Virus record (IMG/VR): IMGVR_UViG_3300034198_009159
Span: 1-20,734 of that record
Reading direction: 5' to 3' (one strand)
Length of the DNA: 20,734 nucleotides
From: a virus
The translations under genes and the position numbers were made by a program. Below the pieces are notes generated by a model that saw nothing but the letters and a program-made list of their open reading frames with translations, made no database searches and had not been told where the DNA came from. Below, piece by piece: positions 1,512 to 19,680 of this stretch (its first letter is position 1; each line of letters begins with the position of its first letter).

Positions 1512-1652
1512 ATGAAAAGGGTTACCTGCATATTCAGCACGGAAGTTCATCAAAAATTAAAACTTCTAGCTGTTCAGCGGGATACAACTTTGATCGCTTT
1601 GATTAATGAAGCTGTAAAAATGTATTTGCGGTTTTCTACCCAAAAAGATTAA
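1512..1652 (+). CDS. Ribbon-helix-helix (CopG/Arc-type) DNA-binding protein (46 aa)
   Basis: A predicted transcription regulator. The 46 residues follow the RHH pattern: a short basic beta strand (KRVTCIFSTEVHQKL), helix 1 (VHQKLKLLAVQRD), the T-T-L turn, and helix 2 (LIALINEAVKMYLRF). RHH proteins bind DNA as dimers through the paired strands, and short ones often repress their own gene. The frame stays open upstream to a TTG at 1458, but I chose the ATG at 1512 because it begins directly at the RHH strand. No good Shine-Dalgarno is visible. It lies just upstream of a winged-helix regulator and an integrase, so control of lysogeny or of the early block is a reasonable inference, not shown directly. 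Confidence 0.65.
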   Translation: MKRVTCIFSTEVHQKLKLLAVQRDTTLIALINEAVKMYLRFSTQKD

Positions 1653-1715
1653 ATCCAGGTAAACTAATCAAGTTCACTCTTTTTACTACATCATTGTGAC
1701 CATCTTTTCAGTCGG

Positions 1716-1733
1716 CAACCTATATATTGGTTG
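1716..1733. promoter_or_regulatory. Inverted repeat, candidate operator
   Basis: CAACC at 1716-1720 and GGTTG at 1729-1733 form a perfect 5-bp dyad around an AT-only centre (TATATATT). It sits in the non-coding gap between the RHH gene and the winged-helix gene and about 25 nt upstream of the predicted -35 at 1760, a plausible place for a regulator to bind. The arms are short, so chance is possible. Confidence 0.25.
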
Positions 1734-1759
1734 GGATGTCGAATCTTTTACGGATATAC

Positions 1760-1789
1760 TTGTCCACTTGGGTAGGTTCCGTGTAGAAT
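1760..1789 (+). promoter_or_regulatory. Predicted sigma70 promoter for the regulator-integrase pair
   Basis: TTGTCC at 1760-1765 (four of six matches to TTGACA) and TAGAAT at 1784-1789 (five of six matches to TATAAT) are separated by 18 nt. Transcription would begin near 1796 and read the wHTH gene and the integrase together. The host RNA polymerase would use it. It is the clearest host-type promoter in the window, and it sits at the start of the int module. Confidence 0.4.
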
Positions 1790-1810
1790 ACGGAGGTTCA
1801 CGGTCAGATC

Positions 1811-2167
1811 ATGGACCCACTCCGGCGACAACGCACCTCCCCTCGGATGGAGCGGATGCTAAAGGTCATCAACCTTCTAAGGCTGTTAGATCGTGAGCTT
1901 CCAGCCCAAGTCATTGCAACCCTATTTTATGTAGCAAGCCATGAAAACTGCCACAAAGCAGCGATGGAGGAAGACCTTGAGTTTACCACTGCTAGTGGCA
2001 GTCGCAACACAGATTGGTTATCTAAGTTCCATCGACTTGGAAAACCAGGACTAGATCTAATCATTAAGGAGCCTGATCCTACGAACAAGAGACGTACTCA
2101 ACTTAAGCTAACGCCAAAAGGCAAACAGCTCATCCACCAAATTGAGGAACTTCTTTTTAATGACTGA
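1811..2167 (+). CDS. MarR-like winged helix-turn-helix regulator (up to 118 aa)
   Basis: A predicted DNA-binding regulator. After a basic N-terminus the protein has helices (MLKVINLLRLLDRELPAQ), a recognition region (CHKAAMEEDLEFTTASGSRN) and a wing followed by a C-terminal helix (KRRTQLKLTPKGKQLIHQ); the LTPKG segment is typical of the MarR wing. I recall close relatives beside integrases in cyanopodoviruses. The start is uncertain: ATG 1811 lies 14 nt after GGAGG, while ATG 1847 (MERMLKVINLL) starts nearer the conserved domain. It overlaps the integrase start by 8 nt, so the two are probably co-translated, implying control of integration or excision. The ligand and operator are unknown. Confidence 0.65.
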   Translation: MDPLRRQRTSPRMERMLKVINLLRLLDRELPAQVIATLFYVASHENCHKAAMEEDLEFTTASGSRNTDWLSKFHRLGKPGLDLIIKEPDPTNKRRTQLKLTPKGKQLIHQIEELLFND

Positions 2168-3023
2168 CATCAAAACATGGGGCAATGCCCTGGACTACAC
2201 ACTTTCAACTAGACACTCTTGGAGACATGGTAATGGCAGAAAAACTGCTCTCATCAATGCTGGTCACTTTACCTCGGCAGTTGGATTATCTTTCCCTGTG
2301 CGAAAAATTGATGTACCTCTCATCACAAGAGTATCCATTGAGCTTGAGGAATCAGGTAGAAGCGACGCGACAATCAATAGAGTCGTGTCTGCAGTTAGTA
2401 CAGTCCTCAATCACTGCGCCTTTGACGGATTAATTCCAACTCCTGTTAAGTTCCGTAGACGTAAGGAGAGTGAAGGTCGTATTCTCTATTTTACCAAGGA
2501 TGAAGTTGATCGTTTGGCTTTCGTATCCACTGACGTATTCATCAGGCAGGACTTAAGTGACATCATCACTTTTGCTGCTTATACGGGAATGAGGCAAGGA
2601 GAGATTTTAAAGTTGAGGCGCAAAGACATAGATTTTGCTATGAATCGTATCCTTGTTGGTGGAGAGGCAGCGGTTAAAACTAAATCTGGTAATGTACGTG
2701 CAATTCCAATACATCAGAAGATTGAAAACATTCTTGAGCAGCGGTATTCACAATCATCGCATGACTCATCACTGTTGTTTGGTCATGAATGGAATAACAA
2801 AGATCAGTTGTTAAGGGCATTCCAAAAGGCTAACCGCCTTGTTAAGAATGATGACAATTATTGCTTTCACGTCCTGCGGCACAGCTTCGCCACTTGGCAC
2901 GCTGAAGCCGGTACCCCGATCCGAACCTTGATGACCCTCTGTGGTCACAAGAGAATCGAAACCACTTTGCGTTACGCAAAAACCACGGATGCAGCCTTAA
3001 CTGAAGCCATGGCTTCGATCTAG
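2160..3023 (+). CDS. int: Tyrosine recombinase / integrase
   Basis: Catalyses site-specific strand exchange between phage and host DNA. The 287-residue product has an N-terminal SAM-like core-binding region and a C-terminal catalytic domain with all signature residues: Arg about 145 (AYTGMRQGEI), the beta-hairpin lysine near 173-175 (VKTKSGNVRAIPI), His237-x-x-Arg240 (FHVLRHSFATW), His263 (LCGHKRIETT) and the nucleophile Tyr272 (TLRYAKT). The ATG at 2160 is preferred to the TTG at 2142: it sits 11 nt after GAGGA and overlaps the regulator stop. The gene is followed within about 85 nt by a tRNA-Leu-like segment, the arrangement expected for int-attP. Nothing suggests it is broken. Confidence 0.93.
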   Translation: MTDIKTWGNALDYTLSTRHSWRHGNGRKTALINAGHFTSAVGLSFPVRKIDVPLITRVSIELEESGRSDATINRVVSAVSTVLNHCAFDGLIPTPVKFRRRKESEGRILYFTKDEVDRLAFVSTDVFIRQDLSDIITFAAYTGMRQGEILKLRRKDIDFAMNRILVGGEAAVKTKSGNVRAIPIHQKIENILEQRYSQSSHDSSLLFGHEWNNKDQLLRAFQKANRLVKNDDNYCFHVLRHSFATWHAEAGTPIRTLMTLCGHKRIETTLRYAKTTDAALTEAMASI

Positions 3024-3106
3024 GCGCGTCTACTGGTCGTCTGCTACAGTCGCCTCACGGCCATCAAGGCCACCGTTTCAGTGAGTCTCATCGCTGGAAT
3101 CCACAC

Positions 3107-3198
3107 GCGGATGTGGCGGAATTGGTAGACGCGCTAGTTTCAGGTTCTTGCCGTAAAAACCTACTTACGTGGATGAGTCGGGGTCAAATCTCCGACTC
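3107..3198 (+). other. attP: Partial tRNA-Leu(CAG)-like segment, putative attP
   Basis: From 3107 the sequence reads as the 5' half of a bacterial tRNA-Leu: acceptor strand GCGGATG, D-stem GCG/CGC around GAATTGGTAGA, and an anticodon loop TTCAGGT with anticodon CAG at 3141-3143. After that the resemblance decays: the anticodon stem has two mismatches, a long insert (CGTAA/TTACG dyad) takes the variable arm's place, a T-arm-like GGTCAAATC with stem GAGTCGG/CCGACTC (3175-3181/3192-3198) follows, and no strand pairs with the acceptor. It is therefore unlikely to make a working tRNA. Its place after int argues for attP, with crossover in or near the anticodon loop. A tRNA-Leu match next to int has been reported for Prochlorococcus podovirus P-SSP7. 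Confidence 0.7.
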
Positions 3199-3226
3199 TC
3201 CTTTCTCTGACTACTATCCACTACGG

Positions 3227-3232
3227 TATAAA
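3227..3232 (+). promoter_or_regulatory. Possible -10 element upstream of the RNA polymerase gene
   Basis: TATAAA at 3227-3232 lies 30 nt before the RNA polymerase start in the gap after the tRNA-like segment. A convincing -35 is missing (only CTGACT, 14 nt upstream), so this is a weak candidate. A host-recognised promoter somewhere ahead of this gene is expected biologically. Confidence 0.25.
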
Positions 3233-3262: not shown

Positions 3263-5608
3263 TTGGCTACACCAGAGGAAATTGATGCACAAGTTCAGTT
3301 AGAAAGAGACCAAATTAGATTAGGTTTAAAAAAGCTGAAGGATAATACAGAAAAACTGGAGAAGAAAAGCTATGCCAGCGCCACTATTTACGGTATTTCT
3401 GCAATCGATGCTTTACTTCCAAAACTAGTTTCTCGCATTGAAGAGACGACTCACAGAGTCAATCAACGAAAAAATGGTGTTGCATTTAAAGAGATCAGAA
3501 AATACTTGGCAGATATCGAACCGCTGGCCGCTGCTGCAATTGCTTTAAAAATAACCTTTGACAAGGTATTCAGCGTTAAACAGGGTAGCGACCAAGTTGC
3601 AGAGGTTTGTGATGCAATCGGTTTCGCTGTAGAATCTGAGTGTCGCATGAGGCACTACGAGAGGTCAGCCCCTGGCTTGCTGCACACTCTGAAGAAAAAC
3701 TACTGGCATAAATCAATTGGCACACAACAGAAACTAACTGTTGTTAAGACTTTGATGAACCGATGCAACACAGAAGAGTGGGAAGCATGGGGAAGGCCAA
3801 ACCGAATCAAACTAGGTACTTGGCTTCTGGATTGCATCATTCAGACTAGTGGGTGGTTTGACAAGCGATGCGTTAGAGAGGGTAGAAAAACTGTTAACTA
3901 CATTGTCCCTACTCCAGAGTTTCTGGAGATCAAAGATAGGGTCATGAAGGACGCCGAGCTTTTCTCCCCACTGTCCTGGCCAATGCTGATCGAGCCTAAT
4001 GACTGGACAAACGACCCAAAAAGACCAGGAGGATACATCCTTAACGAGGTCATGCGAGGTCACGACTTGGTACGTCGCGGCAATCCCCTCCGTATACAGG
4101 GGGAAACACCTCTGACTTTTCTAAATAAAGTTCAGAAGGTAGCTTATCGACTTAATCCATTTATCGTGGGTGTAGCAGAAGAGCTAAGCAGATTGGAACG
4201 CTCTGTTGGTAAGTTTCTCCCAATCATCAACCATGACTTACCACCTAAGCCAGCCGATATCGAAGAGAACTACGATAGCCGGAAGGATTATCGAAGGCGA
4301 GCGGCTGAAGTCATGAACCAAAATGCACAAGAATTTAAAAAATCTTGTCGCACTAGGATGACTATGGAGGCAGTCAAAAGATTTAAAAAGGTAAAAAAGT
4401 TTTACATTCCTTGGTCATTTGACTACCGAGGTAGGGCTTACCCTATACCAGCGTTCCTAACTCCACAAGATACTGACTTTGGAAAGTCTCTACTCAAGTT
4501 TGCTGATGGGTCATTTATGACTCCTGAAGCGGAAGGTTGGTTAGCGTTTCAAGTAGCTACAACATATGGCTTGGATAAAGCAACACTGACCGACAGATTG
4601 AAGTGGGTAGAGGAAAATCAGACACTGATTAGCAACGTTGCTAGTGATCCTATTTGTTATATCTCTGATTGGGAAGCAGCGGACGAGCCTTGGCAGTTCT
4701 TAGCTGCATGTGATGAGTATTATCGCTGCATTATTAAATGTGATCGTCACTTCACAGATCTGCCAGTGGCTACTGATGCTACTTGTTCTGGTCTTCAGAT
4801 CCTAGCTGGATTAGCTCGTGACAAGAGCACAGCCAAGCTAGTTAATGTTCTCCCCAGCTCTGAGCCACAAGATGCTTACAAGGTGGTTGCCGAGGCTGCA
4901 AAGCCGTTGTGCCCACTTCGTCTTCAGCCCTACATGGATCGCAAGAAGACAAAGCGTGTAGTGATGACTGTCCCTTACAATGCTAAACCCTTCAGCAATA
5001 GGGGATACATTAGAGACGCTTTTAAAGAGGAAGGAATTGAACTGGAAAAAGAGGAGCTGACTGAATTAGTGACAGCAGTTCGTGGGGCAATGGAACAGAT
5101 CGTTCCTGGTCCCATGAAGGTGATGAGGTGGATCGAGAAGGAGGTAGCCAACGCCATCAAGAGAGGCTCAACATACCTTGAATGGGTAACTCCATCTGGT
5201 TTTGTGGTTCATCAAAAGCTGATGAAAAAACAAGTTGAGACACTTGAGTTACAGCTTCTCGGTCGATGTAGAATCAATGTCGCCACTGGTGATACTGATA
5301 AGGTTGACATCAATCATCATAAGAATGCAACTAGTCCAAATCTAATCCACTCACTCGATGCCTCTTTGCTTCACCTTTCTGTTATTCGGTTCGATGCGCC
5401 AATAGCCCTGATCCATGATTCAGTGCTGTGCCGAGCCACAGATATGTCTCTTCTATCCACTGTGGTACGAGAGACCTACATGCACCTCTTTGCGGAGCAT
5501 GATTACTTGCGAGACTTTGCAAAACAGATTGGAGCAGAGTCCGAACCACCGATCATTGGCGACCTTGAACCGGAAGCTGTGATTGAATCAACTTATTTTT
5601 TCTGTTAA
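3263..5608 (+). CDS. T7-type single-subunit DNA-directed RNA polymerase
   Basis: Transcribes middle and late phage genes from phage promoters. The 781-residue protein is shorter than T7 RNA polymerase (883), as usual in cyanopodoviruses. Visible motifs: DYRGR near residue 387; motif A with catalytic Asp505 (DATCSGLQILAG); motif B, KRVVMTVPYN, with Tyr572 at the nucleotide-discriminating position; motif C IHDS with catalytic Asp719; and a C-terminal aromatic foot (STYFFC) as in the family. Motif B has Tyr-Asn where T7 has Tyr-Gly. The start is TTG, 6 nt after GAGGA; no in-frame ATG lies close by. Its TAA shares one base with the ATG of the SSB gene. Homologous to T7 gene 1. Confidence 0.97.
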   Translation: MATPEEIDAQVQLERDQIRLGLKKLKDNTEKLEKKSYASATIYGISAIDALLPKLVSRIEETTHRVNQRKNGVAFKEIRKYLADIEPLAAAAIALKITFDKVFSVKQGSDQVAEVCDAIGFAVESECRMRHYERSAPGLLHTLKKNYWHKSIGTQQKLTVVKTLMNRCNTEEWEAWGRPNRIKLGTWLLDCIIQTSGWFDKRCVREGRKTVNYIVPTPEFLEIKDRVMKDAELFSPLSWPMLIEPNDWTNDPKRPGGYILNEVMRGHDLVRRGNPLRIQGETPLTFLNKVQKVAYRLNPFIVGVAEELSRLERSVGKFLPIINHDLPPKPADIEENYDSRKDYRRRAAEVMNQNAQEFKKSCRTRMTMEAVKRFKKVKKFYIPWSFDYRGRAYPIPAFLTPQDTDFGKSLLKFADGSFMTPEAEGWLAFQVATTYGLDKATLTDRLKWVEENQTLISNVASDPICYISDWEAADEPWQFLAACDEYYRCIIKCDRHFTDLPVATDATCSGLQILAGLARDKSTAKLVNVLPSSEPQDAYKVVAEAAKPLCPLRLQPYMDRKKTKRVVMTVPYNAKPFSNRGYIRDAFKEEGIELEKEELTELVTAVRGAMEQIVPGPMKVMRWIEKEVANAIKRGSTYLEWVTPSGFVVHQKLMKKQVETLELQLLGRCRINVATGDTDKVDINHHKNATSPNLIHSLDASLLHLSVIRFDAPIALIHDSVLCRATDMSLLSTVVRETYMHLFAEHDYLRDFAKQIGAESEPPIIGDLEPEAVIESTYFFC

Positions 5609-17552: not shown

Positions 17553-19112
17553 ATGACAAACTCATACCAGCCAGGAAGACCCAATAGCTTTACTGGCACT
17601 TCTCAGACGTTTGCCCCTGTAAGGCAGTCTGACCCCATCCAACTTTTGGATGAGAATGTTGATGTTTTTGGTCGCCTTAAGGTAACACGACATCAGAATA
17701 TTTACGAAGCTGACTTTGAATACGGTCTTCAACCTCTTCGTTGGGAGAACTTTACGTCAGGTTCTGCAACTATCACCCACCTTCCTGGTCAGGGTGGTGT
17801 GCGACTTAGGCTGACTACAACGAGTGGTGATGTAGCAATCCGACAATCACGGCCTTATCACCGCTATCAGCCTGGTAAATCTATGTTCTTGTCTAGTGCT
17901 GTTCAGTTTGGAACTGCACTTGCTAACCAATATAATCGTGTTGGTTTCTTTGATGACGGTAATGGAGCGTTCTTTGAACAAGATGGAGCTGCTGTAAGTG
18001 CTACCAATCCGTTTGGTATGCAGGTGGTAATTCGCTCTGATGCCTCTGGAGTCCCAACTGATACTAAGGTTCCCTTGTCCCAGTTTAATGGAGACACTAG
18101 GAAGATCAGTACTATCAACTGGAACTTAATCCAAATGATCTGGATTGAGTATGCTTGGTACGGAGCAGGGTCTGTCCGCTTTGGTGTGACTATCCAAGGA
18201 CGTAATATTGTTCTCCATAACTTTGGTGCTGGTAACCGTCCTAATAACACGGCACCGTGGGCACGTACAGGTAACCTGCCTGTTAGGTACGAGCAGCGTA
18301 ACTATGGCACTACTGCTGCCATCAACGATATGTTCCATTATGGTGTCTCCGTAATGGTTGAAGGAGGTCAAGATGAACAACGGGGATTCACTTACTCCTA
18401 TGGTATGGCCCTCGGTACTCCTCGTAAGACTGTTCCACTGAGTACGACTCGCTCACCAATCCTGTCCATTCGTAATCGGGTAATGGGGACTAGTGAGTAC
18501 ACACAGGCTAGTGCTGCTATCGTTTCCGGTACCACTTCAAGTATCAATGTAAGCGGTACTCCCTGGGCTACTAACATATGGCGAGGACGTTGTGTTTATT
18601 TTCCCGATACCAATCAGGTTGCAAGAATTGTTTCAAATTCCACTAACCAACTTATCTTTGCTGATGTTGTAACTGGACTGCCCATCACTACTGCACCGAC
18701 TGCTGGACAGAGCTACACGATTGGACTTATTAACCGTGGTCAGATCCTGCCGTTACGTCTTCTCCTATCCTCCTCAGCTCTTGCACAGATTGAAGTCATT
18801 GCTTCTTCTACTTCTAGTCCGATTGTACTGACAGGTAGTTCGTTTGCTGCTGTTAGTACCTTAGGATCTCCTGGTAGCTTTGCTGAACGTGACGTTTCTG
18901 CTACCTCTTTAAGTGGTGGTGAAGTTGTGATGAGATTTACCACTCCTGCTGGTGGTAGTGGCCTTCTGGATTTGGATCTTTCAAACCTGTTTGCCCTTTA
19001 CAACAATGTAAGGGGGAACGTGCCCGACGTTCTTACTATCGCGGCAACTACTACGTCAGCATCTGCTGCTGACATTGGGGCAGACATCATCTGCCAAGAA
19101 GCTATGTCCTGA
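17553..19112 (+). CDS. Conserved cyanophage structural protein of unknown function (519 aa)
   Basis: A beta-rich protein with a Thr/Ser/Gly-rich composition typical of virion surface proteins. Recognisable blocks include VFGRLKVTRHQNIYEADFEY, LQPLRWENF, DVAIRQSRPYHRYQPGKSMF, QYNRVGFFDDGNGAFFEQD, WIEYAWYGAGSVRFGV and PWARTGNLPVRYEQRN. I recall these same blocks in proteins of many cyanophages, including myoviruses, labelled structural protein. The C-terminal third (from about residue 330) is Ser/Thr/Ala-rich and more variable, like a decoration or fibre domain. It begins at ATG 17553 without a clear ribosome-binding site, in the first real intergenic gap after the morphogenesis operon. Role in head or tail cannot be told from sequence. 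Confidence 0.85.
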   Translation: MTNSYQPGRPNSFTGTSQTFAPVRQSDPIQLLDENVDVFGRLKVTRHQNIYEADFEYGLQPLRWENFTSGSATITHLPGQGGVRLRLTTTSGDVAIRQSRPYHRYQPGKSMFLSSAVQFGTALANQYNRVGFFDDGNGAFFEQDGAAVSATNPFGMQVVIRSDASGVPTDTKVPLSQFNGDTRKISTINWNLIQMIWIEYAWYGAGSVRFGVTIQGRNIVLHNFGAGNRPNNTAPWARTGNLPVRYEQRNYGTTAAINDMFHYGVSVMVEGGQDEQRGFTYSYGMALGTPRKTVPLSTTRSPILSIRNRVMGTSEYTQASAAIVSGTTSSINVSGTPWATNIWRGRCVYFPDTNQVARIVSNSTNQLIFADVVTGLPITTAPTAGQSYTIGLINRGQILPLRLLLSSSALAQIEVIASSTSSPIVLTGSSFAAVSTLGSPGSFAERDVSATSLSGGEVVMRFTTPAGGSGLLDLDLSNLFALYNNVRGNVPDVLTIAATTTSASAADIGADIICQEAMS

Positions 19113-19380: not shown

Positions 19381-19680
19381 ATGATTCCTATTCTAACTAC
19401 TCTGTCTGTTATTAGTTCTTGGTATGGTCCTGGTTTTCATGGACGATCAAGTGCTAATGGAGAACGATTTAATCAGTATCAACTTACAGCCGCGCATAAA
19501 TCTCTGCCATTTGGCACAAGACTTAAAGTCTGCTACAGAGGATGTGCTGTTGTTCGTGTGACAGATCGCGGACCATTCATTTCTGGTCGAGATCTAGATC
19601 TAAGTAAGGGAGCTGCTGATGCTATCGGTCTTACAAACTCTGGAGTTGGAAGGGTTAGTATTACCCGTCTGAGTAATTGA
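19381..19680 (+). CDS. RlpA-like double-psi beta-barrel protein (99 aa)
   Basis: Related to RlpA, a septal lytic transglycosylase that cleaves peptidoglycan lacking stem peptides. The family core is clear: SSWYGPGFHGRSSANGERF, LTAAHKSLPFGTRLKV, VVRVTDRGPFISGRDLDLS and AADAIGLTNSGVGRVSI. There is no SPOR domain, and the first dozen residues (MIPILTTLSVIS) are mildly hydrophobic but too short for a confident signal peptide. Cys residues in VCYRGCAVV form an extra close pair. In this phage it may help lysis or wall penetration, either as a lysin or as a virion enzyme; which one cannot be told. It lies between two terminators and is coupled to the next gene through TTGA. Confidence 0.88.
   Translation: MIPILTTLSVISSWYGPGFHGRSSANGERFNQYQLTAAHKSLPFGTRLKVCYRGCAVVRVTDRGPFISGRDLDLSKGAADAIGLTNSGVGRVSITRLSN

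Follow-up and report, generated by a model that had tools for sequence, protein, structure and literature searches.

The segment from 1,512 to 3,198 of the window (the whole stretch of DNA analyzed, 20,734 nucleotides) comes from a T7-like cyanophage and represents its integration module, one more member of the known P-SSP7/S-TIP37 type. In the explanation that we prefer, to which we give a probability of roughly 0.6, the MarR-like protein of this module would tune the expression of the integrase (int) and of the phage RNA polymerase (RNAP). The cassette itself is known; new here are an unannotated conserved gene within it (ORF X), a covarying hairpin, a co-varying pair of candidate operators and a natural provirus in a relative.

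Results

Gene layout and relatives of the window

The source record, 20,734 bases long, is part of the genome of a T7-like (Autographiviridae) cyanophage. Among named phages, Synechococcus phage S-CBP1 comes closest, with 71% identity across 80% of the first 8 kb. The gene content of the fragment comprises a T7-like RNAP, SSB, endonuclease, primase/helicase, DNA polymerase, ribonucleotide reductase and head genes; the RNAP and one virion structural protein were called by profile, and the remaining genes from ORFs and homology. The structural protein (17,553–19,112, PHROG 1645) and an apparent RlpA-like domain (19,381–19,680) lie at an unusual location, between the presumed scaffold and capsid genes. 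The cassette and its surroundings contain the following features.

1,330–1,479, + strand: small early ORF 5' of the cassette (PHROG 21680, unknown function, 6e-16)
1,512–1,652, + strand: Arc/antitoxin-like ribbon-helix-helix (RHH) protein, 46 aa
1,696–1,896, + strand: ORF X, small conserved protein lacking annotation (conservation over 1,696–1,797)
1,760–1,776, + strand: O1, candidate MarR operator, TTGTCCACTTGGGTAGG
1,760–1,789, + strand: sigma70-like promoter match, TTGTCC-18-TAGAAT (9/12 matches)
1,811–2,167, + strand: MarR-like winged-helix regulator, 118 aa
2,160–3,023, + strand: tyrosine recombinase (integrase), 287 aa from the ATG at 2,160
3,107–3,145, + strand: attP core, the 5' half of a host tRNA-Leu(CAG)
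3,175–3,198, + strand: terminator-like hairpin with a 9-bp stem and a T-rich tail, GAGTCGGGG-TCAAAT-CTCCGACTC
3,216–3,228, + strand: O2, candidate operator 5' of RNAP, ATCCACTACGGTA
3,263–5,608, + strand: T7-like RNAP with a TTG start (PHROG 414, 4e-224)

The arrangement MarR-int-attP-RNAP was found in P-SSP7, S-TIP37, S-CBP1 and about 100 environmental contigs. In P-SSP7 and S-TIP37 the elements follow one another as in the window (the RHH gene, X, the MarR-like gene, int, an attP made of a tRNA-Leu 5' half, a hairpin region, RNAP), and the proteins of these phages are about 41–53% identical to those of the window. The P-SSP7 core, unlike that of the window, comes from another tRNA-Leu isoacceptor, and in neither phage have X and RHH been described as parts of the module (they are annotated as hypothetical or left unannotated). 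The closest relative, S-CBP1, shares with the window the attP core and the order X, MarR-like gene, int and RNAP, but no RHH was detected by profile in the region searched. The "integration and control unit" seen by the earlier note, which was made from the letters alone, is thus a fair reading, although it is not particular to the present phage, since P-SSP7 and S-TIP37 share the gene order. P-SSP7, which it named for an integrase with a tRNA-Leu match, has the same module, and Shitrit et al. showed by PCR that P-SSP7 and S-TIP37 integrate into tRNA-Leu (PMC8776855).

LUZ100 and the temperate T7-like phages Pasto and HTVC019P, which infect different hosts, also have a MarR-like gene and an integrase 5' of RNAP, and LUZ100 has a terminator between int and RNAP, where the window has its terminator-like hairpin (PMC10134795). 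The LUZ100 MarR shows about 37% identity, and the tRNA-Leu gene of LUZ100 lies 5' of the integrase, whereas the half-tRNA core of the window lies 3' of int. The LUZ100 study demonstrated cotranscription of MarR and int, obtained no stable, inducible lysogens, and proposed that MarR controls the integrase and, by repression, the RNAP in temperate T7-like phages (PMC10134795); Boeckman et al. (2022), as cited there, made the same MarR-plus-integrase lysogeny proposal. The central idea of the earlier note was therefore already in the literature.

The integrase and the MarR-like regulator

The integrase matches Pfam Phage_integrase (1.2e-25) and the PHROG integrase family (2.6e-55) and is 72% identical to that of S-CBP1. 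Its aligned catalytic set is complete, with R (TGMRQGE), K (KTKSG), HxxR (HVLRH), H (GHK) and Y (LRYAK), which agrees with the complete tyrosine recombinase claimed before, and it lies 5' of a T7-like RNAP as in modules of the P-SSP7/S-TIP37 type. We infer that the window phage itself would integrate site-specifically during infection.

The protein encoded directly upstream belongs to a PHROG regulator family (PHROG 9665, 2.3e-45) and is 67% identical to its S-CBP1 homologue. Its AlphaFold model (pLDDT 91.8) has MarR-family proteins as the best PDB matches in Foldseek, and the model, the Foldseek matches and the alignment together reveal a recognition helix and the DPxNRRxxLxLTPKG wing of the MarR fold, confirming the winged-helix regulator; its Pfam HTH_27 score lies below the cut-off of that family. 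A 39-kb contig (L305-L306, G283:C13) carries a T7-like RNAP homologue together with two homologues of this MarR-like protein (37% and 45%).

The winged-helix protein could alternatively act as an Xis-like recombination directionality factor, driving excision by binding to both the P and the P' arm. A small winged-helix gene directly 5' of int and overlapping it (the two ORFs share 8 nt) would suit such a factor, and so would the finding that named cyanophages have a MarR homologue only alongside an integrase. The P' arm also contains an O2-like element, and a weak inverted copy of it adjoins the core at 3,162–3,174. However, the fold and the wing are those of MarR repressors, and the best partner site of O2 lies in the gene's own promoter region, not in the P arm (see below). 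We regard the Xis-like role as improbable and treat the protein as a MarR-like regulator.

ORF X and the RHH protein

The RHH protein scored 33.1 bits against Pfam Antitox_RHH, above the curated cut-off of 27.2, so the RHH protein proposed for this position stands. RHH homologues were present ~300–515 nt 5' of the MarR gene in 30 of the 74 relatives with enough upstream sequence, as well as in S-TIP37 and P-SSP7.

Comparison of about 90 relatives indicates that the supposed regulatory gap between the RHH and MarR-like genes (1,653–1,810) is mostly coding and contains ORF X, which runs over the start of the MarR gene in a different frame. The profile of X matched 56 of 111 loci, invariably in the same frame and place, and this frame was open in 45 of 58 nonredundant loci, compared with 6 for each of the other two frames. 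Substitutions fell on codon positions 1, 2 and 3 at 30, 16 and 55%, and outside the operator part, codons with a single difference were synonymous in 504 cases and nonsynonymous in 304. The conserved pattern, LYxGxDxxSFxD..VHLGRxRLEW, matched nothing in Pfam or PHROG, and the structure model is all-beta with low confidence (pLDDT 64). A dyad at 1,716–1,733, put forward earlier as a candidate operator, was rejected because the gap mostly encodes X: the dyad is coding sequence in a conserved frame and is absent from the relatives.

X was found in five of the six integrase-bearing T7-like cyanophages examined (the exception being S-TIP28) and in none of the eight without an integrase (p of about 0.003, one-sided, calculated by hand), and RHH was likewise absent from those eight phages. 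Both genes thus appear to go along with int. That RHH and X might form a toxin-antitoxin or similar stabilizing pair carried in the cassette is suggested by the Antitox_RHH match and by the position of the RHH gene just 5' of a small ORF. We nevertheless consider such a pair very unlikely: X occurs in loci with no detected RHH (56 loci with X compared with 31 with RHH) and matches no toxin family, and the provirus described below retains RHH without X. We take RHH and X instead to be probable co-expressed partners of the MarR-like protein.

Candidate operators before the MarR-like gene and before RNAP

O1 lies within X and covers the -35 of the sigma70-like match; it is a recurring, locus-specific element shared with O2, which is palindrome-like and conserved before RNAP in the relatives. 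The similarity of the shared element was higher within a locus than between loci (mean 9.5 compared with 8.3, n = 56, p = 5e-8, a value that overstates independence, as the loci are mutually related and not phylogenetically independent). In the top-scoring loci, the element was mostly located at -55 to -39 of the MarR start and just before RNAP. When we searched with the RNAP-side element of each locus, the MarR-side region was significant in 26 of 64 loci, where ~3 were expected. The O1/O2 pair of the window itself is a modest match (10/16), and pairs are found elsewhere too: CACCTGGGTAT is common to both places in S-CBP3 and CTATCCACT in P-SSP7, one further locus (L055) has TTGCACTTAGGCAA and TTGCACTAAGGCAA, and another (L029) has CTCCACTTCGGTA at both. 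The elements differ among phages and agree inside one phage, and several of those on the RNAP side are palindromes. This pattern, which is what one repressor with phage-specific operators would be expected to leave as its trace, suggests that the O1/O2 pairs may be MarR operators.

The host-type promoter proposed at 1,760–1,789 did not rise above chance by itself, since sigma70-like matches numbered 7 in 6.7 kb and 9.7 in shuffles; we therefore rejected it as stand-alone evidence, though it overlaps the recurring O1 element. A third operator at the MarR start codons (1,812–1,826) was unconvincing (7 of 64 loci). Matches to the O2 pattern numbered 11 in the window, where 4.4 were expected, most of them on the + strand of the first 7 kb, and included a perfect match inside the RNAP coding sequence (5,455–5,467). 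The O2-like sites in the int, RNAP and endonuclease genes were not counted because they lie within the coding sequence of those genes. The TTG start codon of RNAP at 3,263 and its ATTCTTATTG context are retained across most relatives, and this start may perhaps act as a brake on RNAP translation.

The attP core and the hairpin

All 39 positions of the core (3,107–3,145) agree with the 5' half of the host tRNA-Leu(CAG) of many picocyanobacteria; at least 120 genome contigs show this identity. As in P-SSP7 and S-TIP37, the site 3' of int thus matches part of a host tRNA-Leu gene. A 31-mer of the core occurred in at least 119 viral contigs; where these were long enough to tell, it mostly lay 3' of int and 5' of RNAP. 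The tRNA-Leu-like att site noticed earlier is therefore real over these 39 bases, but its extension to 3,198 was rejected, as neither ARAGORN nor Rfam found a tRNA in the segment and 3,175–3,198 is a conserved, covarying hairpin. The same 39 bases are also exact in six contigs labeled as Moraxellaceae, Alkanindiges, Saccharimonadia or Bifidobacterium (L160, L161, L190, L226, L168 and L201), so the core alone cannot identify a cyanobacterial host.

A G+C-rich hairpin stem was present in 74 of 83 distinct loci, compared with 16% of shuffles, mostly about 25–41 nt past the core; this spacing is nearly constant, usually around 30 nt. In an alignment of 14 sequences, seven of the nine base pairs changed on both sides while 90.5% of the cells were paired, and the resulting covariation score was reached by no shuffle.

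A natural provirus at tRNA-Leu(CAG)

The search of picocyanobacterial genomes for prophages at a split tRNA-Leu(CAG), which the earlier note had suggested, turned up a related phage in integrated form. Contig QCSL01000012.1 (52,265 bp; L263-L265, G001:C12), which belongs to the single-cell genome of Synechococcus AG-670-B23, has two cores 45.5 kb apart; these delimit a full-length T7-like provirus that shows both of its att junctions in tRNA-Leu(CAG). In the reading direction of that tRNA gene, host genes, a murA-like gene among them, are followed by a core and the phage P' arm, then by phage genes (SSB, endonuclease, primase/helicase, DNA polymerase, nrd genes, portal, capsid and long structural genes), and finally by an RHH gene, RNAP, the integrase, a complete tRNA-Leu(CAG) and host-type genes. 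The D-loop of the attR core contains one base more than that of attL, so the exchange took place 3' of this insertion. No empty attB was found in the assembly, allowing up to one mismatch. The provirus is of the S-TIP28 type, with the clade-B order (RNAP before int) and an integrase 28% identical to that of the window, and it has no detectable MarR gene or X; integration therefore does not need this MarR. Among the papers searched, none names AG-670-B23.

This provirus qualifies what Shitrit et al. state, namely that not even hundreds of single-cell genomes contain an intact prophage (PMC8776855). It also bears on a different view of the cassette, in which integration is only transient and incidental, and MarR, RHH and X just time early expression with no lysis-lysogeny decision. 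In favor of that view, S-TIP37, whose integration needs int and attP, integrated in roughly 0.3% of cells and gave no stable lysogen when about 3e9 cells were plated (PMC8776855). Since S-TIP37 has RHH, X and MarR, the whole cassette is insufficient for stable lysogeny in the laboratory. By contrast, a full-length provirus with both junctions, and with no empty attB found in its assembly, speaks against purely transient integration, and the locus-specific operator pairs resemble divergence of repressor specificity. It is also possible that AG-670-B23 is a cell caught in transient integration. We give purely transient integration a chance that is appreciable and yet falls short of even, and retain regulation by the MarR-like protein as our preferred explanation.

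Provirus counts from our scan of the genome collection are lower bounds. A second, incomplete attL candidate (L310, G065:C30) consists of a host murA-like gene, the tRNA leader, the core and non-tRNA sequence up to the contig end, and an intact tRNA is also present in its genome bin (L308). In a Synechococcaceae MAG (CANCJV010000068.1, L215), the leader of the host tRNA-Leu(CAG) resembles the P arm of the phage, at 93% across the 71 bp of window 3,078–3,148 (core included); it is the sole host with such a match among 116 compared, possibly an integration scar. Two T7-like contigs in cell assemblies (G363:C8, L286-L288; G027:C3, L289-L291) were rejected as proviruses, as no integrase or att core was found in them, and probably stem from infections that were co-sorted or co-binned. 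Picocyanobacterial genomes also contain homologues of the T7-like single-subunit RNAP (about 25–30% identity), several of them on chromosome-size contigs (G117:C1, G275:C1, G158:C14, G091:C1, G131:C21 and others; L269-L285, L292-L304). Those of G117, G275, G158, G091 and G131 were not accepted as proviruses, with no T7-like structural or replication genes nearby (G091 and G158 gave weak scaffold-like hits only), and perhaps belong to another mobile element.

Discussion

We propose that the integrase recombines the attP core with the host tRNA-Leu(CAG) gene, a step that the relatives support well. With an exchange 3' of the D-loop, the rebuilt host tRNA gene would come to lie at the int end. 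Most likely the MarR-like protein, partnered by co-expressed RHH and X, would repress its own int operon via O1 and RNAP expression via O2, and would thereby set the frequency of integration per infection rather than maintain a classical lysogen. The hairpin past attP may limit how far transcription that starts in the early operon, or in a provirus at the host tRNA promoter, reads through into RNAP. In this proposal we infer from comparative sequence that MarR binds O1 and O2, in which direction it regulates and what RHH and X contribute, and the repression model is carried over from other phages, where it is likewise a proposal.

Several observations count against this mechanism. The AG-670-B23 provirus is complete with no detectable MarR gene or X, O1 lies inside the coding sequence of X, the O1/O2 match of the window is modest, and a perfect O2 match falls within the RNAP gene. 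As for lysogeny arising from the cassette, S-TIP37, which has it complete, speaks against stable lysogens in the laboratory. We accordingly carry the "minimal lysogeny switch" of the earlier note forward as a hypothesis, favored, as far as regulation is concerned, by the operator-like pairs and disfavored by an integrated relative with no detectable MarR gene. Integration-dependent immunity, as in mycobacteriophages such as BPs (PMC4557955), offers an analogy only: a CI-type repressor is dispensable if integration itself rearranges control. In the window attP separates the early operon from RNAP, but it does not fall within a repressor gene. Integration is not a general topological switch of RNAP, as RNAP precedes int in S-TIP28 and in the AG-670-B23 provirus, though it may act as one where attP lies between int and RNAP.

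On a wider reading, T7-like cyanophages would possess an unrecognized repressor system of MarR-like protein, RHH and X acting at phage-specific operator pairs, and some of their lineages would be true proviruses of wild Synechococcus at tRNA-Leu(CAG). We put this forward tentatively, as a possibility with odds of perhaps one against two. If true, it would run counter to the view that these phages have no intact proviruses or repressors. ORF X, the O1/O2 pairs and the full-length natural provirus offer concrete targets, and S-TIP37 is already genetically tractable. At stake is whether the abundant T7-like viruses of marine picocyanobacteria may become dormant.
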